Translations under genes and position numbers: made by a program | Notes under the pieces: model-generated | The model's database searches: none | Told to the model about the DNA's origin: nothing | The model's input: the letters and a program-made list of their open reading frames with translations, nothing else | Origin: Gemmatimonadota bacterium | Lineage (GTDB): Bacteria > Gemmatimonadota > Gemmatimonadetes > Gemmatimonadales > GWC2-71-9 | Direction: 5' to 3' | DNA: 40,578 nucleotides | Assembly (NCBI GenBank): GCA_024641745.1 | Contig: JAHECL010000010.1 | Span: forward strand, 1-40,578 | In this document: piece after piece, positions 32,864 to 40,578 of the stretch | Layout of the letters: the number at the start of each line of letters is the position of its first letter | Numbering within the stretch: position 1 is the stretch's first letter

Positions 32864-34429
32864 ATGCCGCGTCCCAAGAGCATCCTGTGGGTCGACGACG
32901 AGGTCGAGAGCCTCACGTCGCACATCCTCTTCCTCGAGGAGCACGGCTTCCACGTCGACAAATCGCCGCATGGGGATGACGCCCTCGTGATGCTCCAGCG
33001 CCAGGCGTACGGGGTGGTGCTCCTCGACGAACAGATGCCGGGCCGCCGGGGGCTGGAGATCTTCCAGGCCATCCGCGCGCTCGACCACTCGATGCCGGTG
33101 GTGATGGTCACCAAGAGCGAGGAGCAGGAGACGCTCAAGGACGCCATCGGCGCCGAGATCAGCGATTACCTCATCAAGCCGGTCAACCCGCGGCAGATCC
33201 TCTCGGTCGTCACCCGGCTGCTGGAGGGGGACCGCATCCGCCAGCAGCGGCTCTCCCGCGACTTCGCCACCCGCTTCCGCGAGCTCGACACCCGCCGCGG
33301 GCAGGGGATGGCGTGGCGGGAGTGGGTGGAGCTGATCGTGGAACTCGCCGAGTGGGAGGTCAAGCTCGGCCGGGCCGACGAGCCGGGGCTGCAGGACGCC
33401 CTGCGCACCCTCCAGGATTCCCTGCGGGCCGACTTCGCGAAGTTCCTCGGGCGGCACTACGGGGCCTGGCTCGACGGCTCCGAGGAGGACCGGCCGGCGC
33501 TTTCGGTGGACATCGTCGCGGAGTTCGTGCGGCCGACGCTCGACGCCACCGGCAAGGCGCTGCTGGTGGTGGTGGACTGTCTCCGCCTCGACCAGTGGGC
33601 GATGATCCGCCCGCTGGTGGCGACCCGCTTCGACATCGAGACGGCGCATTACTTCAGCATCCTGCCGACCGCCACGCCGTACGCGCGGAACGCCATCTTC
33701 AGCGGCCTCTTTCCCAATGAACTGGCCACGCGGCACCCGGAATGGTGGAAGACCGAGGAGGACGCGGGCCTCAACGCGCACGAGAAGGAGCTGCTCGAGG
33801 AGCACCTGCAGCAGATCACCGGACGGGCGGTGCCGGTCCGCTACGAGAAGGTGTTCACCGCCGCCGACGGCGAGGGACTCCTGCGGCGCCTGCCCGCGCA
33901 CCTCGCCCAGGATGGGGTGACGGCGCTGGTCTTCAACTTCATCGACCAGCTGACCCACGGCCGGACCGAGAACTCCACGCTCTTCGAGGTGGCGCGCGAC
34001 ACCGAGGCGCTGCGCAACCTGACCCGCACCTGGTTCGAGCGGTCGCCGCTGTGGGACGCCCTGCGAGAGGCGGAGCGGCGCAACGTCCCGGTCCTGCTCA
34101 CCACCGATCACGGCTCCATTCACTGCCACACGCCGGCCACGGTGTTTGCCCGCCGGGACACCACGAGCCACCTCCGGTACAAGTTCGGAGAGGACCTGCG
34201 CGCGGAGGATGCTGACGCGGCGCTGGTGGTGGACGACCTCGAGCGGTTCGGGCTCCCGGCGCGCACGCCCGGCACCCGCCTCCTGCTGGCCACCGGTGAC
34301 CGCTTCTTCGTCTATCCCACCAAGCTGCGCGAGTACCAGAACCGCTACCGGGGCGCCTTCCTGCACGGCGGCGTCTCGCCGGAAGAGGTCGTCCTGCCGA
34401 TCACCCTCCTGACACCCCGGCGGGCCTGA
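32864..34429 (+). CDS. porX: PorX-like response regulator with PglZ domain
   Basis: The protein has 521 residues. The receiver domain (1-122) has the acidic pair at 11-12, phospho-acceptor Asp 55 (VVLLDEQMPG) and Lys 105 (IKP). A helical linker follows. From about 210 there is a PglZ/alkaline-phosphatase-superfamily domain with metal-binding residues likely at Asp 238 (VVDCLRLDQW), Thr in SILPTATPYARN (about 269-271), Asp 361 with His 365 (FNFIDQLTHG), and Asp 415 with His 416 (TTDHGSIHCHTP). This layout is that of PorX, the type IX secretion regulator of Bacteroidota, which also degrades small nucleotides or oligonucleotides. It heads a run of ABC exporter and glycosyltransferase genes. No porY or T9SS gene is visible. 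The mRNA is probably leaderless. Confidence 0.85.
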   Translation: MPRPKSILWVDDEVESLTSHILFLEEHGFHVDKSPHGDDALVMLQRQAYGVVLLDEQMPGRRGLEIFQAIRALDHSMPVVMVTKSEEQETLKDAIGAEISDYLIKPVNPRQILSVVTRLLEGDRIRQQRLSRDFATRFRELDTRRGQGMAWREWVELIVELAEWEVKLGRADEPGLQDALRTLQDSLRADFAKFLGRHYGAWLDGSEEDRPALSVDIVAEFVRPTLDATGKALLVVVDCLRLDQWAMIRPLVATRFDIETAHYFSILPTATPYARNAIFSGLFPNELATRHPEWWKTEEDAGLNAHEKELLEEHLQQITGRAVPVRYEKVFTAADGEGLLRRLPAHLAQDGVTALVFNFIDQLTHGRTENSTLFEVARDTEALRNLTRTWFERSPLWDALREAERRNVPVLLTTDHGSIHCHTPATVFARRDTTSHLRYKFGEDLRAEDADAALVVDDLERFGLPARTPGTRLLLATGDRFFVYPTKLREYQNRYRGAFLHGGVSPEEVVLPITLLTPRRA

Positions 34430-37233: not shown

Positions 37234-37992
37234 ATGAACGTCCCGTCCCGGGTACCAGTGACCGTCGTCATCCCGACGCGCAACGAGGCGGAGAACATCG
37301 CCGACTGCCTGGCGAGCGCCGCGTTCGCGGACGACGTCATCGTGGCGGACGGCGGCTCCACCGACGACACCGTCGCGCTGGCCCGGGCGGCCGGCGCCAC
37401 GGTGCTGGAGCGGACGGGGCCCACGATCGCCGCGCAGCGGAACGCCGCCATTGCGGTCGCGCGGAACCGGTGGGTGCTCGCCGTGGACGCCGACGAGCGG
37501 ATCACCCCGGAGCTGGCCGCCGAGCTTCCCGGCGTCCTCGCCGCCCCCCTGCACGCCGCCTACCGCGTCCGCTGCCGGAATTTCTATCTTGGCGTCGAAC
37601 AGACCCGCGGCGGCTGGTCGCGTGATTGGCATGTCCGGCTCTTCCCCCGCGAACGGCGGTTTGTCGAGCGGCGGCTGCACGAGGGCCTCGAGCCGATCGA
37701 GGACGTTGGCGAACTGCAGGGGACGCTGATTCACCATCCCTACCGGTCGCTCGCTCACCACATCGAGAAGATCCATCGTTACGCCCAGTGGGGAGCCGAC
37801 GACCTCTTCGAACGGGGCCGGCGCGCGCGGTGGTCCGATCTCGCCATTCGTCCCGCGTGGCGCTTCGTCCAGTCCTACGTCTTCGAGGGGGCAATCCGGA
37901 ATGGACGCCGTGGGCTGGTCCAGTCTCTCCTCGGCGGCTATTCCGGGTTCCTCAAGTATGCGCACCTGTGGGCGAAGGAAGAGGAGTCGTGA
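37234..37992 (+). CDS. Glycosyltransferase family 2 (WaaE/KdtX-like)
   Basis: The protein has 252 residues with a GT-A fold: VTVVIPTRNEAENIADCL at the start, DDVIVADGGSTDDTV and the DxD-like AVDADERI, followed by RLFPRERRFVERRLHEGL and the HHPYRSLAHHIEKIHRYAQWGADDL region seen in lipopolysaccharide-core beta-1,4-glucosyltransferases. No membrane helix is present. The ATG follows the CgeB stop by four bases; GGAG sits almost against it, an unusually short spacing. It probably extends a core or surface oligosaccharide. Confidence 0.85.
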   Translation: MNVPSRVPVTVVIPTRNEAENIADCLASAAFADDVIVADGGSTDDTVALARAAGATVLERTGPTIAAQRNAAIAVARNRWVLAVDADERITPELAAELPGVLAAPLHAAYRVRCRNFYLGVEQTRGGWSRDWHVRLFPRERRFVERRLHEGLEPIEDVGELQGTLIHHPYRSLAHHIEKIHRYAQWGADDLFERGRRARWSDLAIRPAWRFVQSYVFEGAIRNGRRGLVQSLLGGYSGFLKYAHLWAKEEES

Positions 37993-38014
37993 GCCGAGTG
38001 AGGAGGCCACGGCG

Positions 38015-39208
38015 GTGACCCCTCGGCCGCACCTCCTCACCTGCCTCGATTTCCCGCCCCTGGGAGGGGGCATCGCCCGGTTCATGGATGAACTGGCGCG
38101 GAAATACCCTCCCGCACAGCTGATTGTCTCGACCGGGGGTGGCCCGGGCGCGGCCGCCTCCGACGCCACATACCCGAATCGCATCGACCGGCTCCCCATC
38201 GATGCGTCGCACCTGAAGCGACCCTGGTCGGTGGTCCGCTGGAGCTCGCGCGTGGTGGCGCTCGCCCGGGAAACGAATGCGGAGTTTGCGTGGTGCGGCA
38301 ACCTCCGGCCTGCCGGGTACCCCGTCTGGTGGGCGCACCGACGGCTCGGCCTCCCCTACGGCATCCTCCTCTACGGCCACGACCTCCTCTCCACCCGGAC
38401 ACGCACCCGCTCCACATCGTTCAAGGCGGGCCAGGCGCGCGCGGTGCTCGGCAACGCCTCCGTCATCGTGGCCATCAGCGCCTATACCGAACAGCTCTGC
38501 GCCGACTACCTCGAGGAGCTGGGCATCGGTGAGGCGCGTGCGCGGCTCCGCCGGGTGCCGCTTGGCACCGACCCCGACCGGTTCCGGCCCGGACTGGATA
38601 CGTCGGATGTCCGGCGAAAGCACGGGTTGCCCGACGGCGGGCGCTGGCTGGTCACCGTGGCTCGCCTCACCCCCCACAAGGGCTTCGACACTGCACTCAG
38701 GGCACTCGCCGCACTCGGTCCCGGCTACGAGGATGTGCGCTACCTCGCGATCGGCTCTGGTGGCCAGGAGCGCGAGCTGCGGCGCCTGGCGGAGGACCTT
38801 GGACTGTCGGAGCGGTTCCACTTGCTGCAGGGGGTGGGCGACGCCGATCTCCCGGTCCTCTACAACGTCGGGACGGTCTATCTCGGGCTGTCGCGCGTCA
38901 TCGGCCAGCAGGTGGAGGGCTTTGGCATTTCGCTCATTGAGGCGTCGGCCTCGGGGCTCCCCGTGATCGGTGGCCGGAGCGGTGGGGTCGAGGACGCAGT
39001 GCGGGAAGGGGAGACGGGGTTGCTGGTCGATCCGGAGGATGTCGGGGCGGTGGCCGTACTGGTCCGGGGGCTCCTGACCGATCGAGAAGAGGCTGCCCGG
39101 CTCGGAGCGGGTGGTCGGGCTGCTGCGGAGTCCTACTTCAACTGGACGCGGGTGACGACGGACTTGCGGCGATTGGCAGCGGCTGGTCGCCCATCCACTC
39201 CCCGGTGA
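38015..39208 (+). CDS. Glycosyltransferase family 4
   Basis: The protein has 397 residues with a GT-B fold. The N-terminal domain has DFPPLGGGIARFMDELAR, and the C-terminal donor-binding domain has VARLTPHKGFDTALRAL, then LQGVGDADLPVLYNVGTVYL and the diagnostic EGFGISLIEASASGLPVIGGRSGGVEDAVREGETGLLVDPED (the EX7E region). GTG at 38015 is preceded by AGGAGG at eight bases; the track start at 37901 is inside the GT2 gene. Its last 71 bases overlap the 3' end of the patatin gene on the opposite strand. Sugar donor unknown. Confidence 0.88.
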   Translation: MTPRPHLLTCLDFPPLGGGIARFMDELARKYPPAQLIVSTGGGPGAAASDATYPNRIDRLPIDASHLKRPWSVVRWSSRVVALARETNAEFAWCGNLRPAGYPVWWAHRRLGLPYGILLYGHDLLSTRTRTRSTSFKAGQARAVLGNASVIVAISAYTEQLCADYLEELGIGEARARLRRVPLGTDPDRFRPGLDTSDVRRKHGLPDGGRWLVTVARLTPHKGFDTALRALAALGPGYEDVRYLAIGSGGQERELRRLAEDLGLSERFHLLQGVGDADLPVLYNVGTVYLGLSRVIGQQVEGFGISLIEASASGLPVIGGRSGGVEDAVREGETGLLVDPEDVGAVAVLVRGLLTDREEAARLGAGGRAAAESYFNWTRVTTDLRRLAAAGRPSTPR

Positions 39209-40253
39209 CGGGGCGGGCGCTGATGGCCCAGGTCGGGCAGTTCCGGATGTAGATCCCGTCGAGCGGCGACCAGGCCTGCCGGGGCGCCACCACCTCCGCC
39301 TTGCCCAGCGCATCCATCTGGAAGATCCCCGGCGCCTTCAGGGCGCACGCGCCGCACCCGATGCAGCGGCCCCGGTCCACGTGGATCCGGACCGGCGTCT
39401 TCGGGAAGATCCCCTCCTCTGGTGCCTCGAGCAGGCGCAGCAGCTCCGGAATCAGCTGCCGCATCGTCCGGTATCCCTCCGCCATCAGCTCCTGCGTCCG
39501 GTCGAACACGAACATCGGGTAGTCCTCGACCCGCGGATGCACCAGCAGCAGCGGGGGCGTCCGCCACTGGCGGAGGGTCCGCTCCAGCATCGTCTGCATC
39601 ACGATCTCGAGGCCCCGCGCGTAGGTCCAGGCGAACCCCGACTTCTCCACCTCCGACCGGAGCGCCATCGAGGCGCTGACATCGACGGCGACGATGGGGC
39701 CGGCCCCGCAGACGGTGGCGGCCTTCACGGGCAGGTTGTCCGCGACCGCGCCGTCGACGTACCAGCGTCCGGCGATTTCCCGCGGGGGAAGGATGCCGGG
39801 CAGGGCGCAGGAGGCGAAGACGGCGTCGGCCACCCGCACGTACCGCAGCCCCGGCAGGCCCCAGAGCACCTGCATGCCGGAGTTGATGTCCACGGTGTTC
39901 ACGATCAGCGGGTGTGTCAGCTCGTCGAACGTCTTGTCGCCCACCATGTCGTCGATCAGCCGGTCCAGCGGCTCATGACGGTAGACCGCGGGCGACTGCA
40001 TCCGCTTGAACGCCATGTCGGCGTGCGCCACCTGAAAGACATCCTTCCGCTTCAGGCGCAGGGCCCGCTCCCGCATGAACTCCACCGACCGGCCCGCCGC
40101 CCAGGCCGCCGCGATCAGCGACCCGATGCTCGATCCGACCACCCCGGACGGGCGGAGCCCGGCCTCCTCGAGTGCCTGCAGCACGCCGATGTGGGCCAGC
40201 CCCTTGAGGCCGCCGCCGCCGAGGACGAGGCTGAAATTTCTGGGGGAGGACAT
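39138..40253 (-). CDS. Patatin-like phospholipase fused to a C-terminal ferredoxin domain
   Basis: The protein has 371 residues. The patatin domain (about 8-200) has the oxyanion loop LGGGGLKG, the catalytic Ser 42 in GSSIG and the catalytic Asp 167 in DGA. Close to the C-terminus (about 285-345) is a single-cluster ferredoxin domain with Cys 297, 300, 303 (RCIGCGAC) and Cys 339 followed by Pro (NCP), enough for one [4Fe-4S] cluster. ATG at 40253 was chosen: it begins the conserved SPRNFSLVLGGGG and a -10 TATATT (40265-40260) lies six bases upstream, pointing to a leaderless mRNA. The track's longer start is on the far side of this promoter. The last codons overlap the GT4 gene by 71 bases. 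Confidence 0.85.
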   Translation of the reverse strand: MSSPRNFSLVLGGGGLKGLAHIGVLQALEEAGLRPSGVVGSSIGSLIAAAWAAGRSVEFMRERALRLKRKDVFQVAHADMAFKRMQSPAVYRHEPLDRLIDDMVGDKTFDELTHPLIVNTVDINSGMQVLWGLPGLRYVRVADAVFASCALPGILPPREIAGRWYVDGAVADNLPVKAATVCGAGPIVAVDVSASMALRSEVEKSGFAWTYARGLEIVMQTMLERTLRQWRTPPLLLVHPRVEDYPMFVFDRTQELMAEGYRTMRQLIPELLRLLEAPEEGIFPKTPVRIHVDRGRCIGCGACALKAPGIFQMDALGKAEVVAPRQAWSPLDGIYIRNCPTWAISARPVTGEWMGDQPLPIAASPSSPASS

Positions 40254-40294
40254 GCCCGAAATATAATGACCCTCCTTCCTTGCTATCTTGGTAA
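40254..40294. promoter_or_regulatory. Compact divergent promoter between patatin and permease genes
   Basis: Only 41 bases separate two divergent start codons. On the minus strand TATATT (40265-40260) is six bases before the patatin ATG; on the plus strand TATCTT (40284-40289) is five bases before the permease ATG. Both are TAnnnT -10 boxes, and both mRNAs would be leaderless. No clear -35 box is visible for either, so other factors may help. Confidence 0.42.
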
Positions 40295-40578
40295 ATGCCC
40301 TCGCCCCTCGCCGCCCCCTTCCGGCGCGACCGCTTCTTCCAGCTCGGCCTCGTCCTCGTCGCGCTGGTCGTCGGGGCGGCACTCCTGGCCCCGCTGGTCA
40401 CCTCGGGCGGCCCCTACCAGGGCGACCCCGCCACCTCCTATCTCCTGCCGCCGAGCCTCGGCCACCTGCTCGGCACCGACACGCAGGGCAGGGATGTGCT
40501 GACCCGGGTCATCTACGGGGCCCGGATTTCCCTCGCGGTGGGCATCATCAGCCAGGTGGTTGCCAGCCTCCTCGGCGT
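40295..40578 (+). CDS. Dipeptide/oligopeptide ABC permease (DppC/OppC type), 3' end missing
   Basis: The visible 94 codons start MPSPLAAPFRRDRFFQ, enter a membrane helix (LGLVLVALVVGAALLAPLV) and then the diagnostic HLLGTDTQGRDVLTRVIYGARISLAVGI of the inner-membrane permease OppC/DppC, which pairs with an OppB/DppB-type partner to import peptides or nickel. The frame runs off the right edge. It is absent from the ORF track in this frame because it has no stop in the window. It is divergent from the patatin gene. Confidence 0.85.
   Translation, partial: MPSPLAAPFRRDRFFQLGLVLVALVVGAALLAPLVTSGGPYQGDPATSYLLPPSLGHLLGTDTQGRDVLTRVIYGARISLAVGIISQVVASLLG

Follow-up and report, generated by a model that had tools for sequence, protein, structure and literature searches.

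A patatin-family hydrolase domain joined to a single-cluster ferredoxin domain in one order of Gemmatimonadota

The window analyzed here, a stretch of 40,578 nucleotides from a Gemmatimonadota contig, carries close to its end a gene that encodes a patatin domain and a [4Fe-4S] ferredoxin domain in one open reading frame (Table 1). Among the genomes of Gemmatimonadota, this fusion is a derived trait of one order, most members of which make the fused protein. We tentatively propose that the protein is a cytoplasmic lipid acyl hydrolase that gained a docked ferredoxin once in the ancestor of this order and whose cluster serves as a status switch. No description of a patatin-ferredoxin fusion was found in the literature, and the architecture may be listed in InterPro.

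The initial annotation had read the frame as such a fusion with an intact catalytic dyad and four intact cluster cysteines, and both Pfam matches exceeded their cut-offs, with Ser42, Asp167, Cys297, Cys300, Cys303 and Cys339 exactly at the positions given. The Patatin match (PF01734) covers residues 9-179 with an E value of 1.9e-37 and 129.7 bits against a curated cut-off of 27.7, and the patatin motif set is complete, comprising the GSSIG motif with Ser42, the DGA motif with Asp167 and a glycine-rich oxyanion loop, GGGGLKG, at residues 12-18. In the C-terminal part, Fer4_15 matched residues 290-324 (E 6.3e-8; 31.3 bits against a cut-off of 24.5) and Fer4_13 matched with an E value of 3e-7 (33.6 against 22.4 bits), and the ligand pattern CxxCxxC...CP is present with all four cysteines. 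The protein is thus predicted, from its sequence, to act as a patatin-family lipid acyl hydrolase, and it is probably cytoplasmic, with no signal peptide evident. The claim of a single frame held but that of a single start did not, as the frame is also open 5' of the ATG as far as a GTG at 40382, which would give a 414-aa version. The ATG at 40253 is the likely start because the starts of relatives sit near it.

Table 1 The patatin-ferredoxin fusion gene, its parts and its neighbors in the window
Feature	Position	Strand	Remarks
Group-1 glycosyltransferase gene	37901..39208	+	Convergent; 71-bp overlap with the 3' end of the fusion gene, which is unconserved
Patatin-ferredoxin fusion gene	39138..40253	minus	371 aa; ATG at 40253, stop ends at 39138
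Single-cluster [4Fe-4S] ferredoxin domain, residues 286-348	39210..39398	minus	Pfam and structure matches
Cys339 of CP motif, putative cluster ligand 4	39237..39239	minus	Invariant, 72/72
Cys303, putative cluster ligand 3	39345..39347	minus	Invariant, 72/72
Cys300, putative cluster ligand 2	39354..39356	minus	Invariant, 72/72
Cys297, putative cluster ligand 1	39363..39365	minus	Invariant, 72/72
Linker, residues 281-286	39396..39413	minus	Order consensus GxxPRR
Patatin fold, residues 1-279	39417..40253	minus	Pfam and structure matches; closest solved structure PlpD
Pfam patatin core, residues 9-179	39717-40229	minus	PF01734
Asp167 of catalytic dyad, DGA motif	39753..39755	minus	Invariant, 72/72
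GxSxG nucleophile motif, GSSIG	40122..40136	minus	Ser42 codon 40128-40130
Divergent intergenic region, 41 bp, shared with the oppC-type permease gene	40254..40294		Lacks the palindrome of the sister families
Start of OppC-type permease gene, which runs past the end of the window	40295..40578	+	Divergent; neighbor conserved in family f1

When 298 Gemmatimonadota genomes were searched, 131 strong matches were obtained (E below 1e-55; counted by hand), which fall into three families of the same order, namely 48 in f1, 80 in f2 (Gemmatimonadaceae) and 3 in f3. The fusion is present in Gemmatimonas aurantiaca T-27 (G019, L099), in Pseudogemmatithrix spongiicola 318 (G129, L098) and in a genome that fits Gemmatirosa kalamazoonensis (G080, L096). 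A single-sequence scan of contigs found three near relatives, all from Gemmatimonadota and 62-64% identical, and a plasmid search matched only the patatin half, with no record spanning 80% of the fusion protein. Neighborhoods were retrieved for 80 genomes, and 72 fused proteins were aligned. Ser42, Asp167 and all four cysteines are invariant in these 72, with a spacing of 34-36 residues from Cys303 to Cys339 throughout. Pro340 of the CP motif is kept in 71 of them, the sole exception (L103, G073) having His after the fourth cysteine (QCHAEAI), and a W-S-P motif is conserved ahead of this cysteine. In 15 close pairs (Nei-Gojobori), the patatin part had a dN/dS of about 0.03-0.22 and the ferredoxin part one of 0-0.35, indicating that both domains are maintained by purifying selection, while the last 23 residues of the protein are unconserved (6.7% identity).

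All but four of the strong matches extend to residue 345 or further; two of the four end early (G211 and G245) and two contain in-frame stops, after residue 69 in G133 (L075) and before the ferredoxin part in G214 (L076), these two copies being presumably either pseudogenes or assembly errors. The stops in G133 and G214 are what could be cited for regarding the fusion as an assembly or frameshift artefact that joined two genes, but in about 127 genomes the frame runs uninterrupted across both parts, the cysteines are invariant in the 72 aligned members, and the fusion is found on finished single-contig chromosomes. Comparison of the domains of relatives, which the initial annotation had called for, showed the one-frame fusion to be conserved across dozens of genera of the order in independent assemblies, which rules out an artefact, a frameshift or a chance joining for all practical purposes; the sequencing error once considered is not its source. 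Within the order, the two parts do not occur as separate genes, and what the sister families have is the patatin alone, without the ferredoxin. Some members of the order, including f1 genera g4, g5, g7, g26 and g29 and f2 genus g33, lack the fused gene and have a single-domain patatin as the best match, likely owing to lineage-specific loss. As several lineages have only this single-domain paralogue, the fused gene is dispensable.

An AlphaFold2 model built from the 72-row alignment was confident (mean pLDDT 92.4, pTM 0.89) and comprised two domains. In Foldseek comparisons, solved ferredoxins aligned to the C-terminal part alone and patatins to the remainder; no structure among the matches was annotated as both patatin and ferredoxin, and a structure search against viral models returned patatin matches only. 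The solved patatin most similar to the protein, in sequence (E 9e-24) as well as in fold (TMt 0.86, 27% identity), is the patatin domain of Pseudomonas aeruginosa PlpD (PDB 5fqu/5fya), which shares the Ser-Asp dyad. PlpD carries POTRA and beta-barrel domains of its own, through which it is exported. In contrast, the 371-aa fusion protein has no POTRA or beta-barrel Pfam domain and has a C-terminal ferredoxin instead, which places it outside type V-d/PlpD. The best NCBIfam match was to the stand-alone bacterial RssA-type patatins (NF007623), but its 88.1 bits are far below the equivalog cut-off of 272, and RssA itself has no ferredoxin domain. The C-terminal part has the ferredoxin fold, its match to Thermotoga maritima ferredoxin 1vjw having a TMt of 0.87, an rmsd of 2.0 and 39% identity. 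The single-cluster ferredoxins of T. maritima (1vjw/1rof; Fer4_13/Fer4_15) have the same CxxCxxC...CP ligands but are free-standing, whereas the domain described here is joined to a hydrolase and bears the W-S-P motif.

In the linker, Pro284 is invariant and Gly281 near-invariant across the order, and this conservation suggests that the ferredoxin half is rigidly docked, a fixed arrangement to which the high pTM together with the invariant proline also points. The fixed position suggested by this proline and by the confident packing of the domains would suit a purely structural cluster, with the ferredoxin fold serving as a rigid clamp or as a membrane- or substrate-docking element and taking part in neither sensing nor electron transfer. 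Some DNA-repair enzymes contain structural Fe-S clusters. The hydrolase chemistry requires no electrons and no redox-partner gene recurs beside the fused gene, which also agree with such a role. However, unfused relatives with the same dyad do without a ferredoxin domain, and a full ferredoxin fold with its CP motif has been kept, which is beyond the needs of a clamp. We rank this reading second and consider it rather unlikely.

The structure matches also include ferredoxins that partner P450s, namely Fdx of Mycobacterium tuberculosis and ferredoxins of Rhodopseudomonas palustris. This likeness to electron-transfer ferredoxins and the retention of the four ligands together with the CP motif would fit an electron carrier, where the patatin half positions the ferredoxin at the membrane or frees an acyl substrate and the ferredoxin half supplies electrons to an oxidoreductase distinct from the fusion protein, such as a P450 or an enzyme that reduces lipid peroxides. 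Yet the neighborhoods examined have no recurring gene for a reductase, a P450 or another electron acceptor beside the fused gene, and this possibility, ranked third, seems unlikely to us.

The origin of the fusion was examined with an IQ-TREE phylogeny of 78 patatin domains, 38 of them from fused proteins. The 38 fused rows are set apart from all others by one branch (support 95/70), which recurs in 97% of bootstrap trees, and a single fusion event therefore suffices. Nearest to them are two long-branched sequences of family f9, followed by a clade of unfused patatins linked to suf genes and a clade of paralogues; the fused and the suf-linked unfused genes are likely strictly orthologous, the root among the neighboring clades not being fixed by the tree. 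Five patatin residues are invariant or near-invariant only in the fused clade, namely Phe73, Arg84 (in place of Gly), Trp131 (in place of Phe), Asn173 and Phe207, and their distribution suggests co-adaptation.

The suf-linked unfused patatins belong to families f4-f6, the last of which is probably Longimicrobiaceae; one of the genomes (G032) fits Longimicrobium terrae. They are 35-38% identical to the window protein and share its dyad but have no ferredoxin domain, and no separate ferredoxin gene of the fused type was seen beside them in the neighborhoods. In all 12 retrieved f4-f6 loci, the patatin gene is divergent from a sufC-sufB-sufD operon, and sufC and the SufB/D-type genes are followed, where contig and stretch allow, by Rieske and sufS genes. 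Representatives of sufC, sufB and sufD exceeded their NCBIfam cut-offs, the Rieske gene was confirmed by Pfam, and the sufS representative, a fragment at the end of a stretch, scored just below its NCBIfam cut-off. The other flank of the patatin gene varies among these genomes; what is conserved in the locus is thus its position next to suf. Three further f6 loci have an ABC-ATPase motif in the same position, a motif absent there from two f7 and three f9 loci.

The gap between sufC and the patatin gene contains a conserved palindrome with the consensus TTATCAAGAATGATTCTTnnTATCA in 12/12 sister-family loci (L107-L118). The 8-mer AATGATTC occurs in every one of these gaps, whereas in shuffles no 8-mer exceeded 5, and with one mismatch allowed the palindrome core has one to four matches per genome in six f4-f6 genomes. 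In two of the six (G251 and G116), a second copy lies between P-type ATPase and acetyl-CoA-synthetase-like genes. The palindrome looks similar to a 7-1-7 box of the Fur family and is a possible Fur/PerR-family operator of suf. It is nearer to sufC than to the patatin gene and may serve suf alone. Transfer of the palindrome to the fused gene was considered and rejected, nothing with fewer than 3 mismatches being found upstream of any fused gene; a AAGAATGATTCTT site is absent from the contig of the window with up to 2 mismatches allowed.

The fused gene itself lies far from suf: among 17 fusion-bearing genomes checked, sufB was always either on a different contig or at a distance of more than 380 kb. 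In f2, 23 of the 27 loci (L079-L105) have acnA, encoding aconitase, no more than about 3 kb from the fused gene, mostly downstream and on the same strand in 21 of the 23, with gaps of 9 bp to 2.8 kb. In f1, the neighbors are oppC, a class V aminotransferase gene and glycosyltransferase genes; the aminotransferases were considered as cysteine desulfurases, and the SufS, CsdA and kynureninase models all scored below cut-off. The suf adjacency in f4-f6 and the acnA adjacency in f2 tie the patatin to iron-sulfur physiology, a link at which gene neighborhoods within one phylum hint. The same adjacencies could be explained if the lipase acted within iron-sulfur assembly or repair, with the ferredoxin half as a docking or cluster-transfer module, for example by clearing oxidized acyl groups near Suf or aconitase. 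Against this stand the observation of the adjacency in only one phylum and the inconstant acnA gap and strand, and we regard it as improbable.

The initial annotation had raised the idea of a redox-gated phospholipase, which the suf linkage of the unfused patatins and the invariant residues of the linker would favor indirectly. The status switch is placed first because hydrolysis by the dyad needs no electrons, no redox partner recurs and several patatin lipases are gated by partners. Patatin lipases are often controlled by partner proteins, such as Rab5, ubiquitin and ABHD5 (PMC12871566), a precedent that counts in favor of the switch. It is also consistent with the invariant dyad and cysteines under purifying selection on both domains, with the confident model matching PlpD and the T. 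maritima ferredoxin, with Pro284 and the clade-specific patatin residues as signs of co-adaptation, and with the single origin, the palindrome-bearing suf linkage and the acnA proximity. On the other side, the fused gene is distant from suf and dispensable, being missing from some members of the order, the palindrome may not concern the patatin at all, and the glycosyltransferase and permease neighbors in f1 are unrelated to iron-sulfur metabolism.

As a mechanism, we suggest that in the ancestor of the order a patatin hydrolase would have gained a C-terminal single-cluster ferredoxin domain once, with the cluster bound by the four cysteines and taking no part in catalysis. Reduction, oxidation or loss of the cluster might then alter access to the active site, so that membrane-lipid turnover would follow iron-sulfur or oxidative stress. 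The sister families might achieve this coupling through transcription, the patatin gene being placed across the suf operator, a route that the fusion would have exchanged for direct sensing. In its fullest form, that of an order-wide phospholipase that senses redox or cluster status, is gated by its iron-sulfur cluster, evolved from a suf-adjacent patatin and couples membrane remodelling to iron-sulfur homeostasis, the proposal is doubtful.

Where the control of a patatin lipase is understood, the switch is a protein partner or a nucleotide, and an iron-sulfur switch, if true, would be a new mode of control for these enzymes and a direct, testable link from membrane lipid turnover to iron-sulfur or oxidative stress. 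The CBASS effectors CapV and CapE have the patatin fold in common with the fusion protein but are switched by a cyclic nucleotide, whereas the cluster is the proposed switch here. The match to the CBASS cGAMP-activated phospholipase model (NF041079) reached 64.9 bits against a cut-off of 200, and no cyclic-nucleotide system was seen adjoining the fused gene. Moreover, the suf linkage in the sister families suggests that the patatin takes part in iron-sulfur physiology even when unfused, a role that would be new to the family.

Two other genes were noted. At 32864-34429 (+) in the window, a response regulator is fused to a PglZ domain, presumably a PorX-like architecture, beside an ABC exporter and glycosyltransferases, and in several f1 genomes this gene (cluster c33) is conserved in the vicinity of the fusion. 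In addition, the source genome (2.67 Mb, 228 contigs) has another patatin-like gene (L004, L006) on a second contig (G000:C223), a 747-aa open frame about 3 kb from sufB.
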